A stretch of DNA of 64,000 nucleotides from Capitulum mitella. Its lineage: Eukaryota; Arthropoda; Thecostraca; Pollicipedomorpha; Pollicipedidae. The position numbers and the translations under genes were made by a program. A model generated the notes under the pieces. That model saw only the letters and a program-made list of their open reading frames with translations. It searched no databases and had not been told where the DNA came from. Below, piece after piece: positions 22,301-62,400 of this stretch; position 1 is the first letter of the stretch, and every line of letters begins with the position of its first letter. The stretch covers positions 23,428,122-23,492,121 of the forward strand of contig CP099843.1 in NCBI GenBank assembly GCA_030062745.1. Direction: 5' to 3'.

Positions 22301-25140
22301 GAACAAAACATCGACGAGCTCGGCGCGACGGGACCTCAAGGATAGCCTCGCCTGTTTTCGCGCAGTCGCGTGCAGCCGTCTGAGCGCCTGAATCCTGCAA
22401 CATAGCTCCGATGCAACCGTGATCACCGCCAGAGGTTGCGCTGTTACTTCGCCAGCGGCGGGTAGCCGGAATCGGTGCTACGTGCGGCGTGAAGCCGGAT
22501 ACTCTCGGCTCCCCGAACGCGGCCCGAGCAGGCCGGGCGTGGGACCGGTAATTCCGCTGACCCGTCCCGGGCGCCAGGACCCCGAGCCGGTCCGATGACG
22601 GGGTTGAAATCCGGCGGCGTCACCGCGTCGCCGCCCCCGCGCTCGAGTTGGGTAAGCGGACTGGTCACGACGGGTCACCGGGACCTGACCGGCCGCTCGC
22701 CCGGCCCGCGGCCAGGCCAGGCACCAGCGGGCGGAGGTCACGCCTCACAGCTGGCAACTATCACCGAGCTCGTGCCACAGGCGAGGGATGGTGTCATGGG
22801 GGCTGGTTATGAGGATGGAGGTGCTGTGAACCGGCGTGTGAACCATCAGGCCGGGGCTGTCGGCTGTAGTAGAATTCTGAACACTGGCCGAAGAATGTGC
22901 CGGGGGACCGCTTGGAAAATCGGAGGTCTGGGGAGCCGTGATCTTTTCACCAGACAGCACGGCTAGGTATAGTGAATACATACATCCTACACATCTTCAG
23001 ACAAGCTCCTATCGGCGTACTCGTTTACCAGCCCTCGTTACGCAAACTCCTTCCACAAATAGTGCTGTTCAGACTGAATATATATATATGATATGCAGTA
23101 TAAGCAAAACACAGAAGGCGCGCGAATAAACGTAGCTCATATATGACCTTCGTTTGTCACGCCGATTCTGCCGAAATAGTCAAAAGCTACGGCCGTGACA
23201 CAGAAGAAAACAAACAAATACGTCTACCGAATCCGTGCACGCTGAAATTAAGCTTTGATCCATTTTCAATTTCCCAATTACGTGCAAGCGCCTTGCATTG
23301 GTTTCAGACTTTGGAACCTTGCGTTGAGTGAGCTCTGTCTTTGTTGCAGATTCTGGCACTGACCTTCGTCGCCGTGGTCGCCTCCGCCGCGGCCCTGCCA
23401 TTCAACGGCAGACTGCCGGCGTACCATCAACAGGGCATCGGTGAGAATGCGTCTGTACTCGTCCGTCTTACCAGAAAGTCACCCATGGCACCGCTTCCAC
23501 GTATAAATGATGCGTCTCGGAAGGCGATTGTGCGCGGTATTTAACTTACAAACTTGTACGCGAGACAATAATTTTACTGGTGGTGTTTTTTTTGATTGAC
23601 TGAATGAATCGATTGATTGGAGTGAAAATTAAATTGAATAATAAAAAACAGTCGCTGTCCCTGTCCAAGCAGGCCCGCAGAAACATTATAAAAGTAGAAC
23701 GCCATAGTGTCACAACCGATTTCTGATTCATTCACCGGAAACAGGGCTGTGCCCGAAGCACGACTGGTGACGCATATGTCCCACTTGAGTCAGGCATGCC
23801 CTCCTCTGACGTCAGCCGTGCTCACATCTGAGGTCATCTGCGCTGTCATCTGGCACCATCTGTGCTCCCCTCTGACCTTAGTTGTGCTCCCCTTTGCGTC
23901 GGCCATGCTGCCTTCCGGTGTCAGCTAAGTCTCTTCTCTAGCGTTAGCTGTGCTCCCCGCCGACGATAAATGTGCTCCCGTCTGATGTCAGTTGCGCCCC
24001 CCCCCCCTCTGACGTCAGTTGTGCTCCCGTCTGACGTTAGTTACACTCCCCTCTGACGCCAGCTGTGCCCCCTGACGTCGTCTGTGTTCCCCTCTGACGT
24101 CAGCCGTGTTCCTCAGTTAATCGGCGCCAGCGGACGCGGACGGTCCCGCTGAACCCGTTCCACGGCAGCGGCGCCGAGGTGCAGAAGTGGATGAACGCTG
24201 TCGGACCGCTGGCCCGCGCGCCTGTCAAGCCCGACGTCGGCCACGGACCCTCCATCTACGACAACTACCACCCGCCCCAGAACGCGCAGGTAACGGCGAG
24301 CAGGGTGACTGCCCCATCCCCCTCCAACGAACGGGGAACGGCGAACATGGGTTACCATCCGCCCCCGGGGCCGCAGGGGACGGCGAACGTGGGGTTGTCA
24401 TCCGCTCCTCAGCCTACAGGTAACGGCTGCCACCCGGGCCCGACCCGCGGGTAACGGCTAACAGGGATGCCACCAGCTCCCCTCCCCACCCGGAGATACA
24501 GGCTGCCAGAAGTCCCAACCGCCCATAGCGATTGGTACCTACATTGCGTGGAGTCAAGCACCTGACGATGAGCCGTGCGAATGGTAATTAAATTCGACGC
24601 GGAGACGGTGCGTCGGTCTGGGAGATTTCGACGACCGGCGTGAACGTCACGCTACAACAGCTGAGTCAGACATTGTCCTGCAGAATCGCTGCGACACGGC
24701 TGCGACGTGAACCTTTCAGGCTGAATCAGTCGTCCATGACGCCGTTTCCAGTCGGTGGCAATCTGCTTCCTCACATGACTGATTGGCAAGGACGCTGGAA
24801 GCGGGGGGCAGCCGCCCCCCAACTTTTTCTAAATTCAACATTAACCCTGTGGGCGTCGACTGGAAAGAATTGACCCAAAATGCTTCTTTGCCCCCCAACT
24901 GTAGAGGAGTTCCCGCGCCCCTGTTCACTGGCCGCGGCCTCCTCCGCTGCCGCCGGTGTTGGTGCCGTACTCTGACCACGCCTCCCCCGGCAGGCTGTTT
25001 CGTCCCGCACGCTCTGGTTCGAGGAGTTCCCCCACCAGCGGGCGGTGCTGCAGTGGCAGAACCGGCGCGCCGCCCAGGGCTTGCCGCTCTACAAGCTGAT
25101 CTCGCAGAGGCCCGGCTTCGCCTTCTACCACGGCAACTGA
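10341..25140 (+). CDS. Secreted protein of unknown function, four exons
   Basis: Coding exons are 10341-10349, 23350-23440, 24117-24289 and 24994-25140. All junctions are GT-AG and phases agree (0, 1, 0), giving 139 residues ending in TGA. Exon 1 holds only ATG and two codons before a GTGAGT donor, so the first intron is 13 kb. Residues 3-18 form a hydrophobic signal peptide rich in Ala and Val with likely cleavage after the SAAA stretch. A basic run (R36-R37-Q38-R39-T40-R41) fits furin-type processing and may release a mature chain of about 98-100 residues. The remainder is soluble-looking, Pro-rich in the middle (YHPPQNAQ) and aromatic or basic at the C-terminus, with no cysteines, so it is not a disulfide-bonded peptide. 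I do not recognise the family; a cuticle or matrix protein or a processed peptide precursor are both possible. Exons 3 and 4 each abut tandem repeats. Confidence 0.72.
13250..13770. repeat. Degenerate tandem repeat
   Basis: Diverged units of roughly 30-40 bp built around 'ccgtcac...gataacaga' and 'actggcgacaga'. Old and imperfect, with uncertain boundaries. Confidence 0.55.
18541..18648 (+). repeat. Two-copy tandem duplication, about 54-bp unit
   Basis: The segment containing CTTTGTGCTGTTCAAAACGC is present twice in a row with only a few differences between copies, so the duplication is recent. Confidence 0.85.
21790..22200 (+). repeat. Degenerate tandem repeat, about 60-bp unit
   Basis: About six or seven diverged units that share 'gtcagcgtcacgttactgtg' followed by 'acgcc.tctgtc..agg.tcacg'. 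It lies within intron 1, about 1.2 kb upstream of exon 2. Confidence 0.7.
23790..24116 (+). repeat. Minisatellite ending at the exon 3 acceptor, with CRE-like palindromes
   Basis: About a dozen units of roughly 22-25 bp with the theme GTGCTCCCCTCTGACGTCAG. The last unit ends CAGCCGTGTTCCTCAG, which is itself the splice acceptor of exon 3 (24117). TGACGTCA, the CREB/ATF consensus palindrome, occurs perfectly in at least three units and with one mismatch in others. Confidence 0.8.
24264..24490 (+). repeat. Tandem repeat spanning the exon 3 donor
   Basis: About five units of roughly 35-45 bp. The first consists of the last 26 bp of exon 3 (encoding YHPPQNAQ) plus the donor CAG|GTAACGGC. Later diverged units repeat CCACCCG..., and some repeat GGTAACGGCT, so donor-like AGGTAACGG strings recur downstream of the real one. 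Confidence 0.7.
24803..24905. mobile_element. Mini-MITE, about 100 bp (copy 1)
   Basis: A short unit that starts with a GGGGGGCAGCCGCCCCCC hairpin and ends TTGCCCCCCAAC, with the core 'acattaaccctgtgggc...ggaaagaattgaccc'. A recognisable relative with the same order of blocks is at about 41314-41414. It sits in intron 3 of the secreted-protein gene. Confidence 0.6.
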
Positions 25141-25150
25141 GCGCGCGCCG

Positions 25151-25495
25151 CACCGCTGACTTCCAGAGGCTTCTGCTGTGACCTGAACGGGGGAGGAGAG
25201 AGTGGCCAACTTCCAGAAGCTTCTGCTGTGACCTGAAAGACGGAGGGGGGGGCAGTTTACGTCTCGAGGCTTTTTCTGTGACACGAACGGTGGGGTGGGA
25301 CGGCCGTGTTCTCGAGGTTTCTGCTGTGACCTTAACGAGGGGGGAGGGGATGTGGATCTCTTAGAGGCTTATTTTGTCACCTGATGGTGTGAAGGGGGGG
25401 GGGGTAGCCGACCTCCGTAAGGTTTTGCTGTGACCATAACGGCGCGGGGCAGCCGACTTCCTGAAAATTCCGCCGTGACCTGAGCGAACGGGCGC
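25151..25495 (+). repeat. Tandem repeat in the 3' UTR of the secreted-protein gene
   Basis: About seven units of roughly 45-55 bp, each with 'ttcc.gaggcttctgctgtgacctgaacg' followed by a G-rich tract, starting 11 bp after the stop codon. The predicted 3' UTR is therefore mostly minisatellite. Confidence 0.8.
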
Positions 25496-25958: not shown

Positions 25959-25964
25959 AATAAA
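25959..25964 (+). terminator. AATAAA poly(A) signal candidate
   Basis: First AATAAA on the plus strand after the secreted-protein stop codon, about 820 bp downstream. It fits a 3' UTR that includes the 25151-25495 repeat. Confidence 0.45.
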
Positions 25965-27688
25965 CCGTCGGTTTTTGTAGTTGGTAGTCGCCTGGATGGA
26001 ATTAGATCGGTTCGTTATGCTAGTTAAAAAACACATCGCCTTTTTGCGGACCATGTCAAACCAGCAATCTGTCTTGCATCAAAGCTGTCACGCTAGCAAT
26101 GCGTTTAATCACAACAACGGCAAACCTTATCATACGCAGTTTGTTGTGGCACGCTACACACCTCATCAGCACGGGCGTAGCCCAATATCTGAGCATGAAG
26201 GTAGGCACTGCGTCACCAAGGCCAGCTGCAAATCGGTCGTCCTAAAAACGAGGCGCCGGCCAGATACGAGGTCCGTGAGTGGCAGAGGTCAGCACTGATG
26301 GCGCCGCTCCGGAGCAGGGACCGGGTATCATGCGTCAGCGGCCGAGCACGTCACGAACTCAGGCATCAGACACTGACTAATAGCCAGCTGATAACTGACG
26401 GATTGGTAGCCGACTGTCGGGAGACTGGCGACTGACGAAACACTGACGTCTGGTCACTGACTGACGAGTGACCCGTGGAAGAAGACTAGCGGTTAACTGA
26501 TGACTGGTGGCCGTCCATTTACCGATTAACCGGCGGTCCGCCAACCACTGAATATTGGTCAGCTGACTGACGAATGACAACAGGCTGTCAACTGACTGGT
26601 GACTGACGACTGCATGATCATCGACCGTTGGCGGACTGGCGCCTGATGGAAGGCTGCATGGCGACCGACTGAATGAACAACTGCCGGTTGGACAGACCCA
26701 TGCTGGCCGGCTGCCACATCGCAACCGCTGACGATCATGTAACATTGGCTCAATTAATGCGGCATTCGTTTTTTTTTGTTCGAGACTGAATTTACCGAGG
26801 CGTTTTTCGCCGAGCAGCGACGTTTATATTGCGACGGTTGTTGCGCTCATCACTTGAAAACAATGTGTGTCCCAACACACCCGGGGTCCAAGTTCCACAG
26901 TCCGGGTCATCGACTCCCATTTGGCCTGCTTTCCAGCACGGACAGACCACGAAACCAAGCACACGGAACGATGTCTATTTTCTTTCCGCACCATTGCAGC
27001 GCCGCCCTTGCAGGCTGCAGCGCCCGCCCAACCAGAGCCGACATGCTTCCGAGAGAGAACACCCGTCACACCGGCTCCCAGCCCGGAGTCACAAGGCAAT
27101 CCGTCCGGAGACAAGACGGATGAGACTGCAGTGCACAGTGCACCCGGCGTCACAGTCCACACGGGCCGACTCGAACACGCGCCGGCCGTCCTCCCGCAGA
27201 CGTCGGCCTCCGTTCGTTACACGACCTCTCAGCGGTTACGAAACACCATTCCTCCATCGGGTGCAGTTGAACCAGCGCCGGTGCAATCAAGACCCACCAC
27301 GGCGAGGCGGGGTGAAGGTGATTATAGTATTGCTGGATCTCCGATGTGTTGACACGGCATCATTGTTTTCCTGCTGCTGCCGCTGCTGTAACTCCGGGGT
27401 CGCTGCTGGCGCAACGCAGTGCCTCTAATGTGCCGCCGCATGACCACCGCGGTAACGCTGCCGTACCGCCACCCGCCGCCACCATCACAGACCAAATCAC
27501 AGACCAGACCGCCGGGCCCATGACGACCGGCCTTCCCAGTTCAGCGGCCCACAGCTCCGACAGACCAGGCCCGGTCTCCTGAGCCGTGCTGAGCTCTGCT
27601 GCCGGCCAGATCGTCCGAGACAGACCGGACCTGGTTTCCTGAGCCGTGCTGAACTCTGCTGCCATCCAGGCCCGGTCCAGGGCCGGGT
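25965..27688. other. Intergenic region between two convergent genes
   Basis: Contains degenerate CTGACTGA-type repeats at about 26370-26620 and a 60-bp tandem duplication at 27541-27660 just past the HELQ stop codon. I see no exon. No strong AATAAA for HELQ is evident on the minus strand. Confidence 0.5.
27541..27660 (-). repeat. 60-bp tandem duplication downstream of HELQ
   Basis: Two units at exactly 60-bp spacing share CCTGAGCCGTGCTGA(G/A)CTCT. They begin about 30 bp after the HELQ stop codon on the minus strand, so they would lie in its 3' UTR, matching the arrangement at the 3' end of the secreted-protein gene. Confidence 0.75.
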
Positions 27689-30600
27689 CTAGGGCGGCCG
27701 GGTCGGGCCGGCGGCGGCCGGCGGCTCCGTCTCTTGCGCGGTCAGAGACGAGTTGAGGAGTACGTCCCCTAGGCCGGGCGCACTGTGGAACTGGGCCGAC
27801 TTCAGGCCGTCCAGCATCATCTCCGCCTCCTCCTGCAGCGCCTCGGCCTTCTCCAGCACCAGCATCTGCCGCATACGGAGCATCACGTCAGCACCACGTC
27901 ACCTGCAGTCGTTTGTTTCTAAAAACGTGACAATGTTGTTAAAAGAGGCTACCAAGATCCTGAAACCACAAGACATCTTAGAAATCCGAAAGTCGCTAAA
28001 AACAAAACATCTAGAAAAAAAACGGAGCACAAACCGTACAACGGCGACTTCACTAAAGCAACAGCATCCAGACGCAGACAATCAGCTCCAGCGGGTGTCT
28101 GCACTGACCTTTGCCGAGTCGACGATCTGCCTAGCCACACGGCGGGGCAGGTGCTCCAAGGTGCGAACGAGGGCCTCCGGGTCGGCATTAGCCACATCTT
28201 GCAGCGTCTTGTAGCCGGCGGCCAGGAGAGACCTGGCCCGACCCTGCCAACAGGAGAGGGCCCACATCATCCCAATCAACATCAGCTACTGCAGTCGGAC
28301 CAGACCCTGCCGAAAGAGGAGACAGCACTGGGCGACAGGCCGTATAACCGGAATCAACAGTGGATAAATGCAGAGACGAGAACACAGCTGTCACCGACAC
28401 AACAGCAGAAGGAACATCGTCCAGCTCAATACCAGATACGACAGCGGAAACAAATCTATTCGCAAAGGATAAACGCAAGGAGACGAACAGCATCGTCCCT
28501 GACAGGACCGGATACTGTAGAGGGAAACTGAACTGTCCACGAAACACCAGCTGGCGACGGCCCCCCCCCCCAATGCCACACAACCAGGGACACACACACC
28601 GAGACGCAAAACTATTTATATACGAGGCAGGAAAGCAAAAGAGCTGCCGGCAGTGAACACAGAAGTTAGCGGGACAAAGCGGACAGGAACAATACTGATC
28701 ACAGCGCAAATGGCATCCGGGAAAACTAAAAGGTGCGGCAAAAACAACAGCCAATACAAAAACCACCCGCAGCTGTGATCAAGCCAATAAACGCCTCGCC
28801 TACAGCGGATGAGGTAAAACACAGTAAGCGCCGTGGTCGCCCGACATCGACAAAGAACCGTCGTCTCCGAGGCACCACAGGAAGTGCACGGCTGCTGGTA
28901 TGACTCAAGCACGCCGAGAAAGCAAACCAAATTAACAACAAGCCACACCAACAAAAAAAGGTGTCACATCAGGATAGCCTTGTTCACCTAGCAGGACTCT
29001 CAATTCGAGGCCGTTTCTGCTAGCACTAGGCGTCGCCACTTGGTGCTGTCACGTTCACAATTCATTTTATCTCGGTAAATCTGTATCAAACCACTGCACC
29101 GCGATACCTATCGGCGTCTGCAGTGCGGCTGCACGCGTGACGGCACGCCAGTAATTCGCCGCCAGGGACGCGCACCTGCTTGACGGCTGGCAGCTCCATG
29201 AGCTGGGCCAGCTCGCCGGCGCAGCCGGTGGCCAGCCGCCTGTTGAAGACGTCCAGCAGCTGCACGAACGGCCAGAGCTCGTCCAGCTGGCGGCAGAAGT
29301 GCAGCACGGCGGCCGAGAAGGCGGCCGCGCTCTGCAGCAGCGACTGCAGCAGGCCGCGGTGCAGCTGGCAGCGGCGCGCCGTCTCCCACAGCGAGCCGGA
29401 GCGCAGCGTCTCGTGCAGCGCCAGCGTCAGGTAGAACCGGTGCGCCACCGCCGCCTCCGGGCCCTGGCCGCCGGGTACGGGAGGTCAGGAGGCCGGTGGA
29501 GGGCCGGCGGGCAGCAGCGGGCGGGAGTGCCCGGGTGTGGACCGGCCGATGGAGGTTTGAAGCCGGCGACTCGACGCGGCTGGTGCAGTTTACGAGGTCT
29601 CGCGGACGGGCGGCACAGTTAGATTACACCAGGTTGCCTTACCTCTCACCTATAGTCTCCAAGTTCGTCGGCACTGTTGGAAGGAACGCCAGTCAACAGT
29701 ATCCAACCATGGATTTCTGGAACTTCATATTCGGACGACAAAAATATGATTACGTAGACAACTTGTATGACTGCCCACGACAAATTACGGCGGCTGTCCG
29801 CTGGCAACCAACTGCATACCCAATCATATACCGGACATTCCTGCTGGTGTGCAAACATTGATTCCGTTCCGAACCGAGAGTAACAAAGTTACTTCATAAA
29901 CACAAATGAACACAGGCTCGCTGTTACGTTTTCCCATTCCCCTTTCTGCCTTCGAAATACATTTCCGTCCCTTCTTTATCTGTCTATTTCCGTCTCCATC
30001 TCTGCGTCTGAGTCTGTCCCTGCCTGCCTGCCTGCCTGTCTGTTTGTTTGTCTGTCCCCTGCTCTGCGCTTCCTGTCCTGGTCTCTGGGCCCTGGGCTCG
30101 GTCCAGCCGTAGTACAGACCCGGCCGTTGGTGAAGGACATCATGCGGACCACGTGCGCCTCCGACACGCCGATCAGACGAGCCACGGCCGCCTCCTCCGG
30201 CTCCAGAGACATGAACTGGCCGGCACAGAGCAGACGGACGCGTCAGGACGGCCCCCGTTATCCGCTGTCCGGTACAGCGGAGAGAACAGCCTCAGGACAG
30301 CCGGCGGTCTGCTGTCAGGTACAGCGGAGAGAACAACCTCAAGACGGCCAGCGGTCTCTGCTCGCAGCGACCTCAAAGCGAACAGAGACACTCGCTGTCT
30401 GAACTGCAGACATGTACAGGCCGAGGAGAAGCTGCTCTGCGACACAGCCATCGGAGAAGCCACGCTCGATCCTGTTTGGGCGTCATTCAGGGGGAAGCGG
30501 GTCGTCTCACCATGTCCAGGTAGACCTGGGGGTCTGGCCGGATCGCGTCCATCATGTCGTACGGCGTCACCAGGTACAGCAGGTGCAGGTGGTTGATGAC

Positions 30601-33600
30601 AGCCAGGGATGACTGGGCGTGCTTCAGGTCCTCGTACAGTCGTCCGGCCACGCGCAGGTCCACGCTTCCTAGCGACGACGACGGCGTGGTGAGATCGAAT
30701 CACGAGGCATCGCCAATCCCTCGGAGGGCGGTTAAAATCTCAGCGGAGGTCCTGTCTGTACAGACCGTCTGACGTAAGGCAGTGCGATGTTCGACCAAAG
30801 CGCCATCTGCCAGGTCCCGCAAGGCCTGAGTCAGACATCAGGCGCCAGTCTCCGCAGCCCTGCTGAGCACGACCACACCCTCACCGTCGAGCGGAGCGAA
30901 TGACGAAGCAAAGGAGCAACGGACCAACAACCCTGAACTGACCCGACTCTACTGACCGAATCCAGCCCTCAAGATCAGTCGGATGTTGACCTAATCCGAC
31001 TCTGGGAGAACTAACCTGACCCCGCAGAGAAACCGGTCACCTGACCCGGCCCTCAACGCCGGCCTGCGCTGGAACTGGAGCTGCTGACCTGACCCAGCCC
31101 CGCTGACCTGACCCCGTCCCCAGTGCCGGCCAGTGTCGGCGCCGGGGCCGCTAACCTTTGATGGCGGCCGCGCCGAGCCGGCTCACTTTGAGCTGGAACT
31201 CGGGCGACCACCGTCCGTCCGTCAGCTGTCCCGGGGCGCCGTCTCTGCGGCTGACCCGCAGCAGGCGCTCAGACTTGAGCGCCGCCACCGTCTCAGAGAC
31301 CAGGGCCGAACAGTCCACCTGGCGGCGGAGAACGACAGGATGAGGTCACGTGGTAAACACTGTCTCCAGTCAACGGAGCGGGGCAATTCACCTGAAGTAC
31401 ACGGGGCGAATTTCAGTCTGGTGCTAATAAAAACAAAGCAGAAGCCCCCTACTTGGAGACGGAAACCTGAGCAGAAATCCGTCTAAAGTTGGCACACAAA
31501 GGTTGAATGTCGTATACGCCTGAACATGAGTCCCAACGACCGTCTGACCCTCAGAATAGTCGGCCCCAGTGGTGTTGGCACCTGAGTCCGGACCACCTAC
31601 CTCCAGCGCGTCGGCCTGGACGGCCAACAGAGTTTGCGAGACGACCTTCTCCAGCGCAGTCGGAGAGTCGGCCAGGTCCAGAGCGACAGCGGAGAGCAGC
31701 AGGCGGCGGAGACCGTGTCCGTCCCGCTCTGTCAACGTGGAGACGCACCGCTCCAGGGGAGACATCAGCAGCTCCCCCACCTGACGGCCAGACGTCAGTC
31801 AGTGGAGACGCACCGCTCCAGGGGAGACATCAGCAGCTCCCCCACCTGACGGCCAGACGTCAGTCAGTGAAGACACACCGCTCCAGGACAGACATCAGCA
31901 TCTCCCCCACCTGACGGCCAGGCGTCAGTCAGTGGAGACACACCGCTCCAGGGGAGACATCAGCAGCTCCCCCACCTGACGGCCAGGCGTCAGTCAGTGG
32001 AGACACACCGCTCCAGGGGAGACATCAGCAGCTCCCCCACCTGACGGTCAGGCGTCAGTCAGTGGAGACACACCGCTCCAGGGGAGACATCAGCATCTCC
32101 CCCACCTGACGGCCAGACGTCAGTCAGTGAAGACACACCGCTCCAGGACAGACATCAGCATCTCCCCCACCTGACGGCCAGACGTCAGTCAGGGGAGATC
32201 AGCAGCTCCCCACCTGACGATCAGATATCAGTGAGTGGAGACACACCGCTCCAGGGGAGACATCAGCATCTCCCCCACCTGACGGCCAGACGTCAGTCAG
32301 TGGAGACGCACCGCTCCAGGGGAGACATCAGCATCTCCCCCACCTGACGATCAGACATCAGTCAGGGGGAGATCAGCAGCTCCCCCACCTGACGATCAGA
32401 TGTCAGTGAGTGGAGACACACCGCTCCAGGGGAGACATCAGGAGCTCCCCATATGACAATCAAACAATGGTAAGTAGCGGTGCATGCAACGCGAGACACT
32501 GCTACCGCCACCAGCATCACAAGAAAACTTAAACAGCCAAAGAAGTGAGGGTATTCTAGCTACCTTATTACCAGTCCTGTCCGACGAATACCGAAACAGA
32601 TACCGTGACTGCCTACATGCTCTTGTCTTCGTGAGTGCCCCACTCTGGGCCTTCACACACCAGTTTGGCGTCCTTGGCCTGGACGATCAGGACTGACTCT
32701 CCCGAGTCGTCAATGCCGGCCCGTCCGGCGCGGCCCACCATCTGTTTGTAGCGGCCTCTGGTGAGGAACGCCGAGCCCGTGTACGGCGACCGCAGCACCA
32801 CCTGTCCACAACAAGAGGAACTAACGAACGAAGAACGAAGAGCGCTTACACAGTACCTATCTTTGGCGTTCACTTCTGGTAGAAATACGAAACACCATGT
32901 TATCCCTCTTAAGTCTCGTCCACATCCCCAACCTTTTCTCAGGCAAGAGAAAACGTGCCCTCTCAAATCTCTCTCCGTTGTCTCATAGCTTCGACATGAC
33001 CAGAACTAGTAGGAGGTCTAACCAATTCCAAATCAAAACCGAGAACAACCAACATCAAATCAAAGCCAAAAACAGAGGACATGGCAATCTCTGTCCTCGT
33101 AGTCTGATCCCGTACTCTTGTCCCGCTTGAATGCGGCTAGTTATCAAGGAAAAGGGTTCAAGCTTATTGGGTTCCGCCAATGATGAGCAGATGGTGGAAG
33201 GACACGTCGTCCTAGTAGGTGGCAGGATCCTGTTGTGTCAGACCCCGGGATCCGGTTCAGGCTAATTTGACCATAGCAAAAACATATTTCTGAGCCTTCT
33301 CCTTTACCTGACAGCTCTAAACTTACTAAACGCGTCGAAATACCTCTGATCAATTAAAGAACTAACAAAAAGGAAGACACCGTTCATAAAACGCATGCGG
33401 CACCCCTCATCGGTAGATAAATGCGGAGAAAAGCCCGGACGCCGGACGCATTCAGTCCTGGTACACAACGTAGTCCACGAAAAAAACAGCCTGGGGACGC
33501 CGGGCGCGCCGTCACCTCACACCACCACGGCCAGGGCGCGCGATGGTGCGTCCGGCCAGCTCGCAGTTGCGACGCCCACTGACGGACGACGCCCACTGAC

Positions 33601-39970: not shown

Positions 39971-40633
39971 ATCACAACTCCCGATCTGGCCACTATGAGT
40001 CTGATTGAGTCACGATCCAATGAGCTGAGGATCGCTGGTGTTAAGACGCACAAGCTTTTAGGATCGGCATCCACGTTTTGAGTGCAGTCTTGTCTCGTCA
40101 CGCGTCGTGCTCGTCAGCAACTTTTCGCTTGGTTGGCTGGTTGTTTTGGGTTAGGGCGCTCAGCCACTTGGGCTCAAGCGCCCAGTGTCTAATCCACACC
40201 ATACGTGTCACCGATCGAGAGCCAGCGGCGTCGATTTTTGAACCCAAAACCTTGCGATTACTAGACCAAACAGGGCCTTAGACCGAACCTCTGACCACGA
40301 AGCTAATGACAAGTCATCCAGTCAAAATTTCCCGGGACAATTTTGTAACGTACTCGCCACAGTTGTCGTCATCAGCTGATTTGTTTGGATGTAAACATTG
40401 TGTTTGTAGCCAGTCTAGAAAGCTGCTCTTGGCGAAATTCTGTGATTTCATTGGTTTTTGGATAGGCAGTGAAACCAATAAACGTGTGGAAAATTTGCAG
40501 ATCTAGCGAATAGAAACACTTCCCGCACAATAAGAGCAAAAGGCGAGGCGCAGAACATTCATGTTGTACTGGAAGCGTAACGCGTTGCATTTTGCATTGT
40601 ACTGCATTGCAGCGGGTAACAGTTCGATTGGAA
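39836..40633. promoter_or_regulatory. Divergent HELQ/GNS promoter
   Basis: The two start codons point away from each other 0.8 kb apart, so both transcripts must begin here. From about 39975 to 40640 CpG dinucleotides are at normal density, while the flanks on both sides are almost free of CpG. CCAAT boxes are visible at 40017-40021 and, inverted, at 40450-40454. I see no convincing TATA box, which suits a housekeeping divergent promoter. Transcription start sites cannot be placed exactly. Confidence 0.7.
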
Positions 40634-46600: not shown

Positions 46601-49600
46601 CCGCCGCCGCCGCCGTCGTCTCACGGAGCGGCGGCTTTGTTTCTGGCGGGTGACGCATCGCGGCCGCCACAGCTGGCGTCCACTGAGCCGCGCCGCGCCG
46701 TGGCGGGGGCGTCACGGCATCTCGGCCGTTACGGATGGTGGCCACGGAACTGTGTCCAGCCGTGATGGGGCGTTCTGCTGTTGCGCGGGTTACGTAGTTG
46801 GATAGGAATCTGCAGATGGTATCGCTCTGAGCGCCGCGGCCATGTGTGACTGGCGAGTCGAAACGGACGTTTCTGTATTGGTCGGCCGGAAATGCCCGAA
46901 CCTTGTGTGGATTAGTAATCGGAATACAATGGCAGCCGTGGAAGCGATGTGTTCAACCAGCCATACACAAAGCCGTTAGCGGCTGATAAACCTTGTCTAA
47001 GCATGTCTGGTGCGTGAAATATTAATAAAAAAATATTAACAAGCTTTTAAAACATTCAGTCTCGTCTAGATACGTTCGTCATTATACAAATAAGACATTT
47101 GTTCAATGTGCTGCAATAATTCCCTCCTGGAGCGACGCCTGTTCGTCAAAAATTAAAGGAGACACTGTGGTAACGAATGCGGTAACATTTGTGGTAACAA
47201 AATGCGGCAATATTTTCGGAAGCTCGATGCATATTTCAAAACTCCTGGCTGTGCCCTGTGCTTGAAGGTCAAGTGACCGGACTGAGTCAGCTCGGTGTCC
47301 AGCTTATTTCAGCTTCTTTCGTTGTGTCTTTTAAAGTCAGCAGATGGGTGGCATTACATCAGACCGCCGGACAAGTTGAGAAACTAATCCCCCACCAAGG
47401 TCCTGGAGGTTTGCTGTGGGTCGGGTGGCGGGACACGCCGAACGGCGGCTGAAAGTATCCAGAGGACATGGGGAAGACCGCCTTTAAAATGGTCTCCGGT
47501 CATCCGTTGTTGTGACGCGTCGCAACCAGTGATACACATTTCTTCCCCATGCTCCTCCGCGCTACCCCGTTCCCCCCCCCCCCCACTCCCCGCCGCCGTC
47601 TGCGCTGCCGCGCTGACCCCGTGTCCGGTCCGTTTTCAGTACGGTTTCGACTCGGCCGGCGGCGTGGGCCACGTACCGCCCGGCTGGGACTGGTGGGTCG
47701 GCCTGGTGGGCAACTCGCGCTACTACAACTACACCCTCTCCGTCAACGGCACGGCCCGCACGCACGGCGACGACTACGCCGAGGACTACCTCACGGACGT
47801 GATCGTGAGCTCGCCGGGCCGTGGGACCCCTCGAGCAGAGTTCGTGGCCGGTGCTTGCTACGGATCTGTCCCCGGGCGAGTGTGACTATTTGGGTTAGAG
47901 CGAGGAGTGCGTGTCTGTGTGAGACATGTTATTAGTAACGCTGGCGGTGATATGGCTAAGAGGCGGGGCTGGGAGGTCTTGCCGTCTCGCAACGACGGTG
48001 CTCATACGGCTTATTGTCCTTGTGGTCATATTTCTTGTTATATTGTAACTTACGATTATTGTTGTGTAACTTATTTCTGTATACGGTATTCACACCATGC
48101 GTAAATCCCGGTTCGAGTCGGTCCCTGATCAGTGATGGTCGTCGGCTGCCGCAGAAGAGGTACGCGCTGGAGTTCCTGCGGGGCCGGACGGCGGACGGCG
48201 GGCCGTTTTTTCTGACGCTGGCGCCGCCCGCGCCGCACTCGCCGCAGACGCCAGCGCCCCAGCACCGGCACCTGTTCCCGGCGGCAGGCGCGCCGCGCAC
48301 CGCCAGCTACAACGTCCGGGCCGAGGTATGCCGTCGCGCGGTGGAGCGTCCGTGCTCAGCGCTCCGGACACCGTTAGCAGAATCGGAGAGTTGGCGGGGG
48401 CTGTCCACCGTCTTTGCGGCTGGATGCGGTGAGGGTTGGACCTGCGATGCGTGTAGCGTCCAGTCTCCCGTTTTGAAACCAGTCATTCTTTGTTGTCATG
48501 CGGTACAAGGTACCGAGGAACGTTCATACTCTTTCCTGTCTTGACTGTCAGGCAGTTGTCTGTCACTGTCCGTCGACTGTTGGCTCAGCACTGTCGGACT
48601 GTCTGGTCAGCACTGTCGGACTGTCGGCTCATCACTGTCGGATTGTCGGCTCAACATTGTCGGACGGTCGGCAGGACAAGCACGCGCTGCTGCGCGAGGA
48701 GCCGGCGCCGCTGCCTCCTGCCGTCCTGGACGCTATGGACGCCGCCTACCGGGACAGGTGGCGCACGCTCGTCTCCGTCGACGAGATGGTGGCGGCGGTA
48801 GTGGCGCAGCTGCGGCAGAGGCGGCTGATGGACGACACCTACCTGCTGTTTACGTCCGATCACGGATACCACCTGGGTGCGAGGCAACACCTGTGTGCTG
48901 TTTAGATTACGGATACTGCGTGCGTACCAGGAAACACCTATCTACTGTCCTACTCGAGAGGGAGGTTATCTGATGAGATGTCTTGTGCTCCAGGAGAGTG
49001 GGAGAATTATCCGACAGTGGTCATATCTGCGACATCTAGCGCATATAGGTCGGCTGACATTCACTAGTAGGCGGCTGTCCTGCTAACCCAGAAGGCCAGT
49101 TTTCAGGAGTGGTTTTGCCTGCCGCGGCGGCAGGGCAACCGCGTCTTGAAGCAGCTGACAGAGGCCGTCACCTGCTTGCTTATGTCATACATACGCCATA
49201 CTTAGTCATAGCTATGGCTCTGCCAACCGTAATCAACCAGTCCCTCCCAGTCCCGCCAACAATCGAGTAAGGCAGTTCATATTCTTTATTCCGACTGTGG
49301 CCAGTTGAAGTCTTGCGTTTCGTCCAGGGTATTAGGCTTGGGCGTGGTTGACTTGTCGCGCGACAGACCTAGTCTAAGCGTTGTTGATTGTCGCAAATGC
49401 CATGAATACGCCATAACACGTCATCAGTAGTCACCACCCGCCAGCTGCGAGACAGGCGGCCATGGGAGCGGCAGAACCGCGCGTAGCCGCGCGTTTTTGC
49501 CAGTCGTGTGAATTGGCCGAGAGGGCGCTACCCAACCGCACATAAGACCGGGCCTGTTCCCCGCGCATTGCACCTGCACCGGGCGGCCGGCCGGGTCCCG

Positions 49601-53409: not shown

Positions 53410-56400
53410 TCAGACCCGCCGCAGCCACCAGCCGACCGCCAGCTGGACCAGCACCGCCAGCGCCAGCACCATCCAGGGCCCGGCGGCGCTGCGCCCGTCG
53501 GCGGCCTGCCAGCCGGCGCTGCAGCTGCTCCAGCTGCCGGCGCACGGCCGCCAGCTCGGCGTTGGCGTCCCGCTGCAGCTGTTCCAGCGGCTGCAGACAC
53601 CGCTGCAGTCTGTCGGCAGAGGGCGGCGCCGTTAGTCTGTCTCAGGTCCGCCGTCAGTCTGTCTGGGACCCGCCGCCAGTTTATCTTAGGCCCGCTGTCA
53701 GTCTATCTGAGATCCAACCGTTAGTCTGTCATAGGTCCGCCGTCAATCGGTGTGGCATCCGTCGTTAGTCTGAGGTCCGCCGTCGGTCTGTCTGGGATCC
53801 GTTCGATGTCTGGGATCCGCTGCCTCGCCAGGGTCCGCCGTCAGTCCGTCCGGGACCCACCGTCAGTCCGTTTCAGGCCCGCCGTCAGTCCGAGGCCTGC
53901 ATTCTGAGAGAGGTCTGATGTACTACAAAGCTGGCACATCAAAGGCGCTCGGGGCAATCGGACGTAACCTTAACGGTGTTGTGTAATCAAAATAAAATGG
54001 TACGAACAGAACTTCCAATGACTGTAACGCACATATGAATACAACTCCCTTGTCCTGAGTACATCCAAAACAGTAACCGTGCTGCTGACGGCAACGCTCG
54101 GAAACAGTCAAACTCGTCTCAGAGGAACTGTTACTACCACAGGCGACCAGACCCGGCCAAAGTACGTTACTGACCAGTCAGAAATTTTCGAATGCATTCA
54201 TGAGACAAGGGATCGGTTCCCTTCTAGCTGAACGCGCTGTCATATCTTCAAGTGACATCGCTTGTGACACGAGGTTTAACCTCCCAATCCCGTAAGAACA
54301 TAAAATCGCCAGTACAAATCACAACTGCGACACAGGCAGTGTACAACTTATGAGACGCTTTCGTACTACTCTACGTTCTCTGGTTGTACTGAGGCCGTAC
54401 CTGAGCGGGGGACGGTCCCTGACCGTACTGGGGCCGTACCAGAGCGGGCAGACGTTCCTTGACTCCAACGGGGCCGTACCTGAGCGAGAAGACGTCCTCT
54501 GACCGTATCGGGGCCATACCTGGCTGTACGATTTGTGACTTGTAATTGATGTTTTCCGTTCTAACGAGACTGGACGGTTATCCCACGTTCCTGACCGTAC
54601 TGGAGCCGTACCCGAGCGGAGCACACCTTCTCTGGCTGTACTGGGGCCGTACCTGAGCGGGGAGACGTTCTCTGACATGAACTGGGGCCGTACCTGAGCG
54701 GGGAGACGTTCTCTGCCTGTACTGGGGCCGTACCTGAGACGTTCTCTGGCTGTACTGGGTCCGTACCTGAGACGTTCTCTGGCTGTACTGGGTCCGCACC
54801 TGAGACGCTCTCTGGTTGTACGGGGTCCGTACCTGGGACGTTCTCTGGTTGTACCGGGGCCGCACCTGAGACGCTCTCTGGTTGTACTGGGTCCGTACCT
54901 GGGACGTTCTCTGGCTGTACCGGGGCCGTACCTGAGACGTTCTCTGGCTGTACTGTCGCCGTACCTGAGCGGGGAGACGTTCTCTCGCCGTCGGCCGTCC
55001 ACGGCGCTGGCCTCTGGAGAGGAGCTCTCTGAGATGCGCCCTCTGGAGGTCAGCTCTTTTCTGACGGCGGCCACGTCCGACTGGCAACAGACGTCCCTCC
55101 CGTCAGTATGGTCCTAAGCACGGGTCACACGCCTGCAGATGTACATACGGCAACATCCCGACGTGTGCGAGGGGACTCAAGGCATCTCTATTGTGTTTCA
55201 CGATGCGTCTAAACAGACTGTTGATCAGGCGCTACAATATCCATGCTGGCATTTTCTGTTCATTGCAATTCCACGCATTCGGCGCATATCACTATCGAAC
55301 TGAAAAGCGTGACTCTCACGGCACCTTTGACAGGGCAGTGACACGCCATGTCATTCAGTCTTCGTTCTGAATCATAATCTGAATTGATCACGCCCCCGGA
55401 TGCACGTGAAACAGATACCGATATACGGCTTCTGAACCACAACCAGTACTGACGACGAACCTCACCCTAACAGAACGCCAAGCAGAACAGCACTGCACCA
55501 TGTGGCCAGCGTGCCATTCCGGCGCCACTTTTACGGCGTGCCTACCATTCTCTGGAGTCAAACACACACACATCCCCCACTCCCTCCGACACACCGGCCA
55601 GCGCGGCCGCCGTCCAGGGACCCACCTTGAGCAGACTGTTCTCCACGCTGAGGATGCTGGCGGTGCGCAGCATGGGCGCCCGGTGTCGGGTGCGCGTCAG
55701 CACCTGGTACTCGGACTCGTACTGGTGCTGGTCCGTGTGCGGGTCCCAGGGGCGCAGGTCCGCGTACCGGTACAGAAACTCGCCGGTCAGGCAGTCCTGC
55801 CACGATGCAGGGGCAGCGTTACATGGTGGTACAGGTACCAGGGCAGAGAGCGCCGTACCGCTACAGAGACCCGCACATCAGGCAGTCCTGTCGCGACACA
55901 TTGGCAGCGTTCCACCCTACTCCATGAGCTCACGCGTTATTGATATAGAGACCTGTAATTAACGCATCCCGGCTACGTGCAAGATGCGGGTGCTTGGGGT
56001 GGTACATGTCAACGAAAGGCAGGGATACCTGACAATCAGGACGAGGTACAGATGCCCACTAGTCGTGGAGTTCAGCAATTCGAAAGACAAGGCCATATGG
56101 ATGATTAACATACGACGCGATGAAGCGATGTGTACAACAGGACTCTAGGCAACATGATCGAGACGCTCGTTCCCACAACTTTGTCGACTTCGACCTCACC
56201 TGAACAAAATACTTTGGCACCCATTCTGTGCAGGTCTCCTTGCGCTCTTTGGCTCCGGCACGCTGCGCCTCCTCTAGGACAAACTTCTCCTGCGTGGCCG
56301 CCTCCTGCAGCGGGTGCGAGCCGGGGTGTCAGAACCACGGACACTAGGCAACCCACACTGTGACAAGTGTGGACAATACGTCCCATCGGAACGACGATGA

Positions 56401-59400
56401 CACCTCAGGGATGGCACATTACACTAATGTCCAAAACAGCGGAACACAACAATCCACAGCCAGTTTGGAGTGGACCCATCAACGATCCTTTAAGACAGTA
56501 TCGTGGACAGCAAAACCAGGTGACTACGCAGTGCGAAGCACTTTCGCTGAAAGCAGATGAGAAACCAACACATAGTCTGCAAAGACAAGATCTCAACGCT
56601 ACGTTTTCAGGCTGTTTCCCCGCGACTTTCAGTGCCGTCCCTACCTGGCCCAGAACTCCAGACGGTCGCGTCCTCACCTGATCATCGCGCAGGATCTCGC
56701 GCGACACCTTGGCCCAGAGCCGCTCCGACTCCCACTCGCCCTGCTCCTCGAGCGGCACGGTGAAGCGCTTCAGCCGGCGGCGGCACACCTCCGGCGTGGG
56801 CTGCCACAGCGTCCCCCGCTCCTGCGCCGCCGGACGACGGCGTCAGGCGAGGTCAGACGCACGGCCCGCTCGACCACCAACTCAGAGGGCCCGCCCGACA
56901 CCACGGCAAACACGAAACTTACGTACGCAAACACAGTGAAACCAAGGAGCGATAATGCTTTAATGAACACGACCAACAACCACTTACGTCCGATTTCCGT
57001 GACGTTCAGTTCACCACGCCGCTGAGGGCCGCCTGAAAATCGCGCTCGAGCGAATCCTTCTCCAAACCACGGCATCGTTTCAGACCCATCCCGCCCCTCC
57101 TTCCCCCGTTGTCGTCACATCGGAGGGCACGTGACTCACGTCGGTGCGTTTGTCGGTGAAGAACACCTGGCCGTCCCACTTGCCGTCTATGGTGGCCAGC
57201 GTCTCGCGGCCCAGCCGAACCTTGCCCACCACGCGGTTACAGTCGTCAGGACCGGACCACATGGGCTGCGAACGAGGACGGGTGTCGGCGTCACCCGCCA
57301 ACACGAGGCATGCCCCTTCACTGGCAAGTATGCAGTTGCACAATCCAGAATACACAACTGAGTCATGTCCATCAAAGCGACGGACTTCGGAACGGAAAGA
57401 GCCAATCACGAGCACTGCAGGAGACGCACTGCATATACCAACAAACGCGGATTTCATGTTCACACAACTTAGAACACATGCGATGAATATTTCTAAGCTC
57501 GGTGCGGACACAATGCTAGCGGTCAGTAACCAGTCAGTAGAAAAGTATGATACGTTACAGGACCCAGGCATGATCTAAATGCATGCATCGTTTTCTAGCC
57601 CTGCCTAAACAACATAACAAAACCCCTATATCGCTAGACAATGCCTGAATCATTCCCCTCCCTTGGGCGGCCGACCCAGCTACAGCCTCCTGAGGCGACC
57701 GCTAGGGGCGTTACTGTCGCTGCACCTTCAGCTTGAACTCCAGCTCGGTGGTGTAGCCGGTCTTCTCGCAATCGATGGTGACCTTGCCACCCAGCTCCAT
57801 GGACAGGGTGCCGATCAGGATGCCCTTGCAGTGGGCGTACGGCATGGTGACGCGGTAGACCTCGCCGCGAGGCAGCAGCGTCAGCGTGGCCGTGCCGTTG
57901 AGAATCGCTGACGTCGAGTTACCTGCAGCACGCCACAGCCGCGTCAGTGTTCAAGACCACCGGTACCACAGTCGCATCAGTGACCCAGACCGCTGGTACC
58001 ACAGCCGCGTCAGTGTTCAAGACCACCGGTACCACAGCCACGTCAGTGATCCAGACCACTGGCATCGCAGCCGCCTCAGTGATCCAGACCACTGGTATAA
58101 CAGCCGCATCAGTGATCCAGACCACTGGCAACACAGCCGCCTAAGTGATCCGGACCACTGGTACCACAGCCGCGTCAGTGATCCAGACCAGCACTACCAC
58201 AGCCGTGTCAGTGATCCAGACCAGCAGTACCATAGCCGCGCCAGTGATCCAGACCACTGGTACTACAGCCGCGTCAGTGATCCAGACCACCGGTACCACA
58301 GTACCATTGTACCGTTAACAACAGATGATCGGCGATCCGGGGGAATGACATCAACGCAGGATCACATCTGGGCGTCATTTCCACCGACGCCTGCGACTCC
58401 AGATATTATTCACGGTCTGCTAGGCGACCCCAGGCAACGCTTCGACGCTGGGGAAAGCTACCACTGCCAAAACAGCCGTCTCATGTGTTGCATCAGGCCT
58501 GGATCACTGCCGGATGCACAGTGCTGGGTTCTGTTACCATCGGCGAATCAGACATTTCAGTGACAGCCAGCAGTGGCTCATATACCGAACTGCATCGGAT
58601 TTCCACTGGCAATGGCTCAGCAAGTGTCCAACTGTCCTGACATCTGCACTGGGGCACGGCTGAATGGTGCGCTTAGTCAGACTTACAGAGCCATTCTGTC
58701 GGAATAACCCTGCTGCAGTCTGGCAATTACTGGGATCCGTCACGAAAGTCTAGGGAATAAAAACGGGTCGAAGGAGGTACATCGTCGCATCAACAACGGG
58801 AATAAAGTTCAAATGCGGCAGAAAAAAAACTCTTCGTTCTTGCAGCAGCTCAGAAGGGATGATTTCAGGCTGTCTGGCCTGACGGCATGTAATCTTCCTC
58901 ACCGTAAAATTTGGATTTGGCTAGGATCGAGCTGCTTATGCAGAAGCCATCCTTCCTGTTAGACACGAAGAACGCAGAGATGGGCGGATGATGCGAGACC
59001 TGCCGGCAAAATGGCGCGGTGTCAGCATGATTCACAACTGGCTAGTAGAACTATTTCTTTAGAAACGCATCAGTTTAATGATAGGGCTGCTGTCTACAAA
59101 GAGCCTTATTTAATTTGTTACGACGCGCAGAAAACGATATCCATGCGCTGGTCATCAAAATTAAGCACCTCACGCAACTGTCATACAAATGCCTCATTAC
59201 ACAGAACGTATGAAATGTTTTCAAACGTGGCTATTTCAGCAGGCGAATACGAATATACGAATGATTCAAGGCCAACTGAACGCAAAGCACGCCCGGCACC
59301 AAATGCGAGGACCAGCATACAATGATCAGGACCTGACAGTGAACAGGCTGCAATTCGTTCAGCAGCCCTGGCCGCCCCCCCCCCCCCCATCTGCGGTGGG

Positions 59401-62400
59401 GACGGCCGACGGCCGGGGACCTCAGGCGCTATCTCCGCTCCAAGCAAGTCTAGCTTCAGTAGGGATCCCAGCCCCAGTCACACTAATCTCAGTCGCCATC
59501 CCTGCTCCAATTACGCCCAACAGAGTCGACCTTAATCGACCCGCGCGGCACCGACCGGTCGACCTCCGGGCCCCACCTCACGGCACCTGCACCCGGACCA
59601 TGGCCTACAGGCGGCACGGAAGTCACAGCACCTCGTTCTTGCTCTTGAACAGCATTGATTCTCATCATCAGCAGTGATTCTCACCGTAGCCCTTCCTCAA
59701 CGCATCGCGTAACGCAATGACACTGGGCAGAGCCAAACTTATGCACCCTGCCTATTCAGATCCCCATTCGGCTCCTGAGAGCTGCCAAAGCCACCGCTGG
59801 TATGCCCGACATTCCCGACAACGCGTGTGTCCCGACCAGCGTGCATCAGACACTGCCGGACCGGAGGGACGCCGGCCACCGCCCACCTGCTCGGCGATAT
59901 AGAAGGTCCGCGAGCCGTTCGGGTGCTGCCAGTAGCAGCGAAACGTCTCGCCCAGGATCGGGTTGTACGGCTTCTTCAGGCCCTTGGGCTTCTTGTAAAA
60001 GCCCGAGAGGTACCAGCCGACGATCTCCTTCATCCGCAGGAACGGGTCGTCCACGTTGATCGCACTGCGGCGGAGGAAGACGGGTGGACGTCGAAACGCC
60101 TCGCTCTCCCGAGGTACGCACGAGGCGGCCAGTCGTGCCGCCGGCCGCCCGTCGAGTCACGAGGCGGACCGCCGGCCGCACGCGACTCGCCAGAGCAAAC
60201 AGCCCACACTGTAAACATTCCCCCGTAATTTCCCTAAAGACGTACTCAGAACAGGACGCCCAGCGCCAGCAGTCAGGCAACACGGCAGCACTGTAATAAT
60301 CCCCATCCAGACGTAATGTAGTGTTGTATCAGGACACAGCTTGCCGCACGCGGCCGTGACGCGTGACTGAGACCGGCGCACTCACTGGCTGAGGTAGTCG
60401 GCGTGGTAGTAGTAGTCGCTCAGCTTGTCCAGGAACGAGCGCGGCTCCAGGATGAAGGTGGGCAGAACCACCTTGCTCAGGTCCATGCCGGGCCGCAGCT
60501 GCTTCAGCAGGTACCACAGCAGGTTCTTGTTCTCGTCGCCGAGCTCCTCCGTCTGGCCGCCGCCGCCCAGCAGCTCCTGCGGCCCACAACACGGCAGAGC
60601 CGCCCGTCAGAGCACGGCCCGACCGCCAAGTGACAGGTTCAGGAAAGCAGGACTGCACTTACGCCCATGCCACGCTGTCGCAGTATTTGTCATTCATGAC
60701 CAAGAGTAATGGTCGATGCAAATTCAAACTGCGCTAAACCTTTCGGCACACACCATCAACACTGGCAAATCAGAAGAAACACTGCAGTGACACCGCCAGC
60801 ACAAGCATGACACACACAAACAAACACCCCGGGCCTGGACGCCCGGCCCGCGGCCGCGCCGTCAGCCGGCACGCACCGGGTCCAGGACCTCGACGTTCTC
60901 GCAGTAGGTGGTCTCGATGGCGGGCGCCGGCTCGGCCGGCTCGGCCGTCGTCTCCTCGTCCTCCAGCGGCGAGCCGTCGTCCGACGAGTCGTCGGCCGCC
61001 GGCTGGCCGTCGTCCGTGTGGCCGTCCTCGACCGGCGTCACCACGCGGCTGTCGTCTGCCGGCGGCCGGGCGGTCATCGCGCGACGGTCGGCCGGCGGCG
61101 GCGGACGACCCGCCGGCCGACGTCCGTCAGGACCCGGCAGATAAACGGACGCTGCAGGCGTCAGAGCCGTAGCAACGGGAGATGCATCTCACGCACACTG
61201 TGGGATCGGCCGACCCCAGGGGGTCGCCAAAAACCGTAACCGAGAGCGACGCACGCATGGAACGGTCCAGCATTGGCATCTGTTAATGCCGGCGTGATTT
61301 ACAGCATCCATACGGTGGTATGACATACGGCCCGCATGCATACTTCATTCGCTCGTGTTTCCCGCGCCCATTTCCGGTGACAGGGCCCGCATTAGTCTAG
61401 AACTTAAACAACACCTGGGACGCGGGTGGATTATTGGTCCTAGAAGCCGCTATGGATGGCCCATTTCATGCTGCACCAGCACGGCCAGTAACGTCGCACA
61501 TGCACTTCGCTTTCCGTCTGCAAACAGTGAAGGCAACCAACCCCATGACACATAACTGGGTCTACATTCTCTTTTGGACGCGACCTCGTCCGGTTTCAAA
61601 TGTTTTCCTTAAACGTGCTCCGTCGTTTCACCATCCCATGTGCCCTAGTCTCCTACCTGAAGCCCCTACCGCGCGTTCCCTGGTCTCCACCGGACGTACC
61701 TTGATCTCCGCCGGACGTACCCTGGTCCCCGTCAGAAGTATCCTGGTCTCCGCCGGACGTACCCTGGTCCCCGTCAGAAGTACCCTGATCTCCGCCGGAC
61801 GTGGCCTGATCCCCGTCAGAAGTACCCTGGTCTCCACCGGACGTACCTTGATCTCCACCGGACGTACCCTGATCTCCACCGGACGTACCCTGATCTCCGC
61901 CGGACGTACCCTGGTCCCCGTCAGACGTACCCTGATCTCCGCCGGACGTGCCCTGGTCACGGCCGGGTGTATCCTGAGCCCTGCCGGACTTACCCTGGTC
62001 TCCTCCAGACGTACCCTGGTCTTCCTCAGACGTGCCCCGGTCCCCGTCAGGCGTACCCCGGCCTCCGCCGGACGTACCCCGGCCTCCGTCAGACGTACCC
62101 CGGTCTGTCATATGTACCCCGGCCTCCGTCAGACGTACCCTGGTCCCCGTCAGACGTACCCTGGTCTCCGTCAGACGTACCCTGGTCTCCCGCCTCCGGC
62201 TCGGACTCGGCCCAGGACCGGCCGCCGTCGGCGTTCATGGAGCGCTTTAGCAGCGACGAGCAGGCCATGCTCAGCTCCAGCGCGTCCATCCAGCACTTGC
62301 CCGAACTCTGCGTCGGCGCCCGGAAGATGAGGTGCGTCGTCGGCAGCGGCTGCACCACGGCGCCTGGCGATGACGTCACCGCGCGTCAGCTGACCGCCCG

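Follow-up and report, generated by a model that had tools for sequence, protein, structure and literature searches.

The locus and its genes

The window studied here is a 64,000-bp stretch (C5:23428122-23492121) of an assembly of 477,042,490 bp in 16 contigs (C1 of 45.5 Mb, C16 of 18.3 Mb), in which at least 150 Chitin_bind_4 (cuticle-protein) domains, a hallmark of arthropods, were found. Five genes were modelled in it using open frames, splice sites of the GT-AG type, and homology; they encode a secreted protein, a HELQ/POLQ-like helicase, a GNS-like sulfatase, a REEP-like protein, and an ORP8-like protein [Table 1]. Together these genes comprise 40 introns and 80 junctions; GT-AG dinucleotides were found at all 80 junctions, and the frames are open. 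Tandem arrays lie in several of these introns, and their position at exon boundaries is the subject of this analysis. The REEP-like gene (43616-47639 of the window) lies on the opposite strand within GNS intron 3, and its array is thus intronic to both genes.

Tandem arrays at the splice junctions of the window

A strong array was defined as one reported by Tandem Repeats Finder (TRF) with a score of at least 100 and a period of at least 6, lying mostly within an intron; arrays less than half intronic and periods below 6 were excluded. As a null for the window, each array was dropped at random within its own intron, GNS intron 3 being split around the REEP gene. Of the ten strong arrays, eight come to within 20 bp of a junction, compared with an expected 1.47, and the combined junction distances gave a Monte Carlo p of 5e-6, which is the floor of 200,000 draws. 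At a TRF score of at least 50, the count is 8 of 13 (expected 1.65). Two strong arrays are exceptions: the duplicated 47-bp repeat in intron 12 of HELQ and, among the arrays in ORP intron 12, the stretch at 54386-54522. Junctions are crossed by four of the ten arrays (at the HELQ exon 10 acceptor, the ORP exon 2 and exon 12 donors, and the REEP exon 3 acceptor), and four others halt 2-17 bp before an acceptor (GNS exon 6, ORP exon 7, secreted-gene exon 3, and ORP exon 13). Both intron ends are affected, with six near-junction arrays at acceptors and two at donors in the window, and three at each in the other genes described below. Counted by intron, a near-junction array is present in 7 of 40 introns of the window and 6 of 100 elsewhere, i.e., 13 of 140.

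Table 1. Genes, tandem arrays, and local duplications of the window (positions are those of the window; "other copies" are copies besides the one at the junction)
Feature	Position	Strand	Details
Secreted protein gene	exon 3, 24117-24289	+	model based on frame and splice score
HELQ/POLQ-like helicase gene, 16 exons	exon 10, 31601-31780	-	HELQ/POLQ homology
GNS-like sulfatase gene, 10 exons		+	Pfam Sulfatase, 2.9e-51
REEP/TB2-DP1-HVA22 gene, 3 exons	within GNS intron 3	-	Pfam TB2_DP1_HVA22
ORP8-like gene, 13 exons	exon 2, 62181-62363; exon 12, 54965-55080	-	ORP8 alignment
22-bp-unit array, secreted-gene intron	23789-24103	+	stops 13 bp before exon 3 acceptor; AG kept in 0/9 other copies
Degenerate repeats of secreted-gene exon 3 donor (CAG/GTAACGG)	24282-24510	+	5 other partial copies, GT in 2; self-similarity z=3.8
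47-bp repeat, two copies, HELQ intron 12	30264-30357	-	strong array; nearest junction 48 bp away
65-bp-unit array over HELQ exon 10 acceptor	31737-32450	-	crosses 44 bp; AG kept in 9/9 other copies found
17-bp segment, two copies, starting at HELQ exon 8 donor (GTCAGTGGGCGTCG)	33567-33600	-	period 17; z=4.9
28-bp-unit array over REEP-like exon 3 acceptor	44447-44672	-	crosses 3 bp; AG kept in 5/8 other copies
22-bp-unit array at GNS exon 6 acceptor	48575-48672	+	stops 2 bp short of intron end; AG in 0/3 other copies
47-bp degenerate duplication across GNS exon 6 donor	48857-48950	+	one copy, 72% identical, retains GT (score -3.5); absent from the original prediction
22-bp-unit arrays near ORP exon 13 acceptor	53627-53892	-	start 17 bp into intron; one weak 57% copy with AG
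33/40/41-bp-unit arrays, ORP exon 12 donor	54386-54969	-	exon-proximal part crosses 5 bp; GT kept in 12/12 other copies found
91-bp-spaced degenerate duplication, ORP exon 11 acceptor region	55757-55917	-	z=14.0; one 73% identical copy, AG kept
33-bp-unit array near ORP exon 7 acceptor	57933-58301	-	ends 10 bp off; one partial copy without AG
21-bp-unit array over ORP exon 2 donor	61674-62190	-	crosses 10 bp; GT kept in 18/24 other copies

The repeated units are built around the exon boundary to different degrees. The unit at HELQ exon 10 consists of CTGACTGAC...CAG followed by the first 44 bp of the exon, the ORP exon 12 unit includes CTCAG/GTACGG, and the ORP exon 2 unit includes CCAGG/GTACGT; the unit at ORP exon 7 has CACTGAC and lacks an AG. 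The 17-bp repeat on the intronic side of the HELQ exon 8 donor was read off the sequence directly, as it falls under the 60% identity cut of the copy search. The arrays reach up to 25 copies.

The original prediction, made from the letters of this stretch, had held that junctions in all five genes coincide with tandem repeats whose units contain the splice site. The positional half of this claim holds, and position at the exon boundary is indeed what the arrays have in common. The splice site itself was found within the units at seven of the 11 junctions named (HELQ exons 10 and 8, which had been numbered as the exon 11 acceptor and exon 9 donor, REEP exon 3, ORP exons 2, 12, and 11, and the secreted-gene exon 3 donor), and not at the secreted-gene exon 3 acceptor, GNS exon 6, ORP exon 7, or, beyond the one weak copy, ORP exon 13. 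As a literal statement about duplicated junctions, the claim is too wide. When 24-bp windows centred on junctions were searched for a local copy matching at 18 or more of the 24 positions, copies were found at 5 of 80 junctions (6.2%), compared with 13.6% of 2840 intron-interior positions and 4.7% of 856 exon positions; in the absence of a junction excess here, the enrichment is one of array position and not of duplicated bases. Likewise, self-similarity of z>=8 was seen at 14 of 80 intron edges and in 13 of 71 interior segments, and counted by segment the edges show no excess, since long arrays occupy both. The arrays do not form a single repeat family, as had been supposed from their differing units: among 24 of the 26 units (two long ones were left out), the best similarity between loci is 64%, and a single family of the introner type was therefore not found.

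Recurrence in other genes of the assembly

Exon anchors in other genes came from matching the Myosin_head, Cpn60_TCP1, and Kinesin profiles, using only matches in the retrieved stretches. Among 124 adjacent exon pairs, 15 lacked retrieved sequence between them and 109 were modelled as introns (60 kinesin, 33 chaperonin (CCT), and 16 myosin), of which 100 passed the filter (53, 33, and 14, respectively). A script placed the junctions on the basis of profile anchors, frame, and splice score, and was given no information on arrays. These 100 introns contain 16 strong arrays, of which six are found no more than 20 bp from a junction (expected 1.31, p=0.001) and two cross one; at a TRF score of at least 200, the count is six of nine (expected 0.76, p=3e-5), and with all 109 introns it is unchanged at 16 arrays, six of them near. 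The families differ: 4 of 7 arrays are near a junction in the CCT genes (expected 0.56, p=0.001), 2 of 9 in the kinesin genes alone (expected 0.76, p=0.17), and the myosin introns, 16 modelled and 14 filtered, carry no arrays. The predicted recurrence beyond the window is thus seen in the chaperonin genes and not in the kinesin genes taken alone. Given this split, and given that the kinesin stretches were picked blind while the arrays of the CCT and myosin loci had already been seen when the junctions were set, the replication outside the window rests mainly on the chaperonin genes.

Two of the CCT arrays serve as examples. The CCT gene on C5 has a 55-bp unit composed of a pyrimidine tract and CAG followed by GCAGCTGATCTACAACTACCC, the exon start, and the CCT gene on C13 has a 35-bp unit with the exon end CCAAG/GTAGGG. 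In the myosin genes, we observed runs of duplicated myosin-head exons (profile positions ~377-436) at C16:5450234-5454280, C15:16425184-16428593, and C14:17197973-17199823, a pattern reminiscent of the clusters of alternative exons in the muscle myosin of arthropods.

The coincidence of arrays and junctions could be an artefact if junctions had been chosen to suit the arrays. The junctions of the secreted gene and of ORP exons 2, 12, and 13 do rest on frame and splice score and not on homology, and the prior sight of the CCT and myosin arrays points the same way. However, the HELQ exon 10, REEP exon 3, and GNS exon 6 junctions fall inside continuous HTH_61, TB2_DP1_HVA22, and Sulfatase matches, respectively, the ORP exon 7 junction falls within the ORP8 alignment, and the scripted junctions of the other genes were blind to the arrays. 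We consider such an artefact very improbable.

Splice signals inside the copies

Copies were phased on the junction, and the other copies found were scored for an intact splice dinucleotide. Many copies with AG or GT are present in six arrays (HELQ exon 10, both CCT arrays, ORP exons 2 and 12, and REEP exon 3), including 10 of 10 other copies in CCT C5 and 13 of 13 in CCT C13, and are not seen in the arrays at the GNS exon 6 and secreted-gene exon 3 acceptors. In the six arrays, the boundary copy is 0.70-0.98 identical to the consensus of the other copies, a value that bears on concerted evolution. The duplicated sites are often as strong as the real ones. Internal acceptors of HELQ exon 10 score 7.8-11.8 compared with 11.2 for the real site, which six of the nine equal or exceed; those of CCT C5 score 0.4-13.5 (real site 10.3), and the internal donors of CCT C13 all score 7.7, the same as the real donor.

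The reading frames nevertheless discriminate between the copies. Each of the nine internal acceptors of HELQ, if used, leads to a stop 8-16 residues further on, and all ten of CCT C5 lead to a stop, as do five of six tested donors of CCT C13, five of seven internal copies at REEP exon 3 (the remaining two shift the frame), and two of six donors at ORP exon 2; over all arrays, 31 of 38 internal copies tested give a stop. These stops suggest that the exon-proximal copy is the working one, though many of its neighbors score equally, and judging from the frames the choice would be made by exon definition. HELQ exon 10 and CCT C5 can be regarded as natural experiments, with at least 10 intact acceptors, many of real strength, and only the exon-proximal one giving an uninterrupted frame; such arrays allow a direct test of exon definition versus scanning versus position in splice-site choice.

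It had also been proposed that the arrays display an intermediate state of intron creation. From the predicted gene structures this is not favoured, since the arrays of the anchored cases (sulfatase, REEP, HELQ/POLQ, ORP8, and CCT) lie within introns that interrupt continuous domains and most internal copies would introduce a stop.

Some arrays could instead be coding, with the true donor at their distal end, the candidate being ORP exon 12 with its 33-bp in-frame units. The main unit there is a multiple of 3, and the exon frame is free of stops through the array (54330-54964), ~210 codons past the proximal donor. However, a different frame there is interrupted by only 2 stops over 259 codons, and openness therefore says little; nor was there an excess of third-codon-position divergence in this array, by columns counted by eye. 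In ORP exon 2 the frame is closed by a stop within a few units, and the arrays of HELQ, REEP, ORP exons 7 and 13, GNS, and the secreted-gene acceptor themselves include stops when the frame is followed upstream. Coding arrays are accordingly hard to credit.

Placement, base composition, and the origin of the arrays

A placement null is fair only if founder duplications are free to extend across the junction, and for this purpose we pooled the 10 arrays of the window with the 16 of the other genes. Near-junction arrays number 14 of the 26, whereas 2.8 are expected under intron-only placement. Base composition also changes along the introns: over 125 introns, the guanine-cytosine (GC) content is 0.665 at a distance of 6-26 bp from the exon and has dropped to 0.515 by 106-150 bp, and the array units have a mean GC of 0.58-0.64. 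When spanning is combined with GC weighting, the expectation rises to 8.8-12.3 against the 14 observed (p 0.02-0.28), which is indicative that tolerance and composition are sufficient under the stronger weightings, with a possible remainder. Arrays that cross a junction are no more frequent than the spanning null allows (6 of 26, expected 4.0, p=0.2). On these results, a duplication bias specific to junctions, one of the two causes offered in the original prediction, is not upheld, and the other, tolerance of duplicates that splice out, gives the best fit. Tolerance of junction-spanning founders, together with the GC content of intron ends, may suffice to account for array position.

We therefore read the arrays as mirage-type minisatellites, i.e., local duplications of the junction area that are tolerated by splicing, and assign this reading a probability of roughly 65%. 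Local tandem duplications would arise in the GC-rich DNA near exon ends, and some founder copies would take in the splice site. The copies could then multiply inside the intron by slippage or unequal exchange, while the splice-site copy nearest the exon would still join it correctly, most likely via exon definition. As the extra copies would leave with the intron, the arrays could persist, and they are probably tolerated rather than useful.

Several results weigh against this reading. With spanning allowed and no GC weighting, 6.2 near-junction arrays are expected and the 14 of 26 observed are a clear excess (p=4e-4); with GC weighting and no spanning, the expectation is 4.1-6.9 and the excess stays (p 2e-6 to 3.5e-4); and with spanning and the milder GC weightings, p is 0.02-0.05. 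Arrays halting 0-20 bp inside the intron number 8 of 26, compared with 2.1 expected (p=6e-4), an excess that passive tolerance alone does not predict. The use of the exon-proximal site is itself deduced from frame and homology. Lastly, divergence in the columns of the splice core is below the unit mean in six of six arrays, with combined ranks giving p=0.13.

The excess over the flat spanning null could point to a process tied to splice junctions, such as transcription- or splicing-coupled breaks, or AG/GT microhomology, which preferentially duplicates DNA there. The genome-wide distribution of splice motifs is in line with such a process: tandem triples of the donor motif MAGGTRAG occur in 1344 sequence windows (747 + 597), compared with 137 for the reversed motif, 396 for a GT/TG-swapped motif, and 227 for the reverse of the latter. 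A branch-site-like CTRAY on the gene strand is also present in 8 of 9 acceptor-side units, where 0.95 is expected by shuffling, with 0 of 5 donor-side and 5 of 10 interior units carrying it (the 24 units compared above). However, counts of sequence windows inflate long arrays, and among the matches listed, which are the stretches that distinct-array counts cover, MAGGTRAG forms 14 distinct arrays in 40.1 Mb and the swapped motif 21 in 138.5 Mb (2.3-fold, p=0.015), reduced to 1.7-fold (p=0.08) once single-motif rates (291,529 bases) are considered. The CTRAY test was devised after the units were seen, and in the CCT C5 unit the motif sits in the exonic part. Spanning and GC weighting together remove most of the positional excess. 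With spanning allowed, moreover, the window alone exceeds expectation (8 of 10, expected 2.75, p=2e-4), but the other genes stay within it (6 of 16, expected 3.41, p=0.10), and the kinesin genes alone match it (2 of 9, expected 2.0). The split between CCT and kinesin lowers the odds further, and we hold a junction-linked process to be unlikely. We are about as doubtful of the more far-reaching proposition that a mutational process linked to splice junctions turns them into duplication hot spots throughout this genome, making minisatellites there far more often than in GC-matched intron DNA, with up to 25 splice-site copies, many of real strength, among which exon definition alone chooses. Separately, a long donor-motif array with units of ~45 bp (CAGGTGAGGGGCCGG...) was observed at C1:4794690-4796793.

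The arrays might also be functional, with repeated branch sites, acceptors, or donors that strengthen or regulate splicing and are kept by selection. The intact splice cores in most copies of six arrays, the low divergence of the core columns, and the frequent CTRAY in acceptor-side units would fit this view. On the other hand, the conservation of the core columns falls short in the combined ranks, no other copy with AG exists in the GNS exon 6 and secreted-gene exon 3 acceptor arrays, the internal copies usually lead to a stop, and few introns carry a near-junction array. Selected function appears quite improbable, and tolerated mirage-type duplication is the reading that we carry forward.

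Other features of the window

Homology searches of the window gave a mixed picture. The GNS protein had no match in PDB at 1e-20 and matched Pfam Sulfatase instead, no Pfam family matched the secreted gene or the ORP exon 2 piece, and nothing was found in the window by searches against Rfam or for tRNAs. One stretch of the ORP protein was searched against genomic and viral contig collections; no relative was confirmed, and no orthologous animal loci were obtained. In the last ORP exon (53410-53609), the coiled-coil frame differs from the frame of the C-terminal membrane anchor, which might reflect an error in the assembly or an intron missing from the model.

The block at 40001-44000, which takes in the 5' part of GNS and where the TRF list has no array, is low in GC and has a CpG observed/expected ratio of 0.56, compared with 0.85-1.14 in the other 4-kb blocks; this depletion is perhaps due to gene-body methylation. 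An intergenic, degenerate stretch at 26340-26700 is rich in CTGAC/ACTGACG, and words of the CTGAC type recur across many arrays of the genome.

Comparison with known systems

Structures of this kind are known from lancelets. In amphioxus, "mirages", minisatellite-like duplications of exon-intron boundaries, are described in Adh3, the globins BflGb6 and BflGb9, troponin C, and PGBD5, and RT-PCR (reverse transcription PCR) suggests that splicing is undisturbed there (PMC3087553, PMC3902484). Mirages and the present arrays share tandem boundary duplications, occurrence at both 5' and 3' ends, many copies with AG or GT, and a locus-specific unit length (PMC3087553, PMC3902484). The mirage trait of spanning the exon-intron boundary is found in 4 of 10 arrays of the window and 2 of 16 in the other genes. 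The lancelet cases are single-gene reports with RT-PCR, whereas the present ones come from an arthropod, with multiple arrays at a single locus and statistics over 140 introns, and are known from the genomic sequence of one haplotype. No arthropod report of such junction arrays was found in a literature search that was thin on subscription journals and mostly judged by title. The present arrays extend mirages to a new phylum and add a frequency, with 13 of 140 introns carrying an array no more than 20 bp away from a junction. Such arrays may mislead automated annotation.

Boundary tandem repeats able to carry splice sites also figure in the Rogers model, in which introns are gained or lengthened through tandem duplication of AG/GT segments, and in the internal repeats at exon-intron boundaries of human paralogs (PMC2812944); unlike in intron gain under the Rogers model, the internal copies here appear to be unused. 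The dual-specific AGGT sites of the repeat-embedded introns of UBC and VCX3A resemble the present arrays in having one splice motif per repeat unit (PMC10809524). In contrast to those AGGT sites, which serve as donor and acceptor in one, each array described here lies at one end of an intron and carries one type of site.

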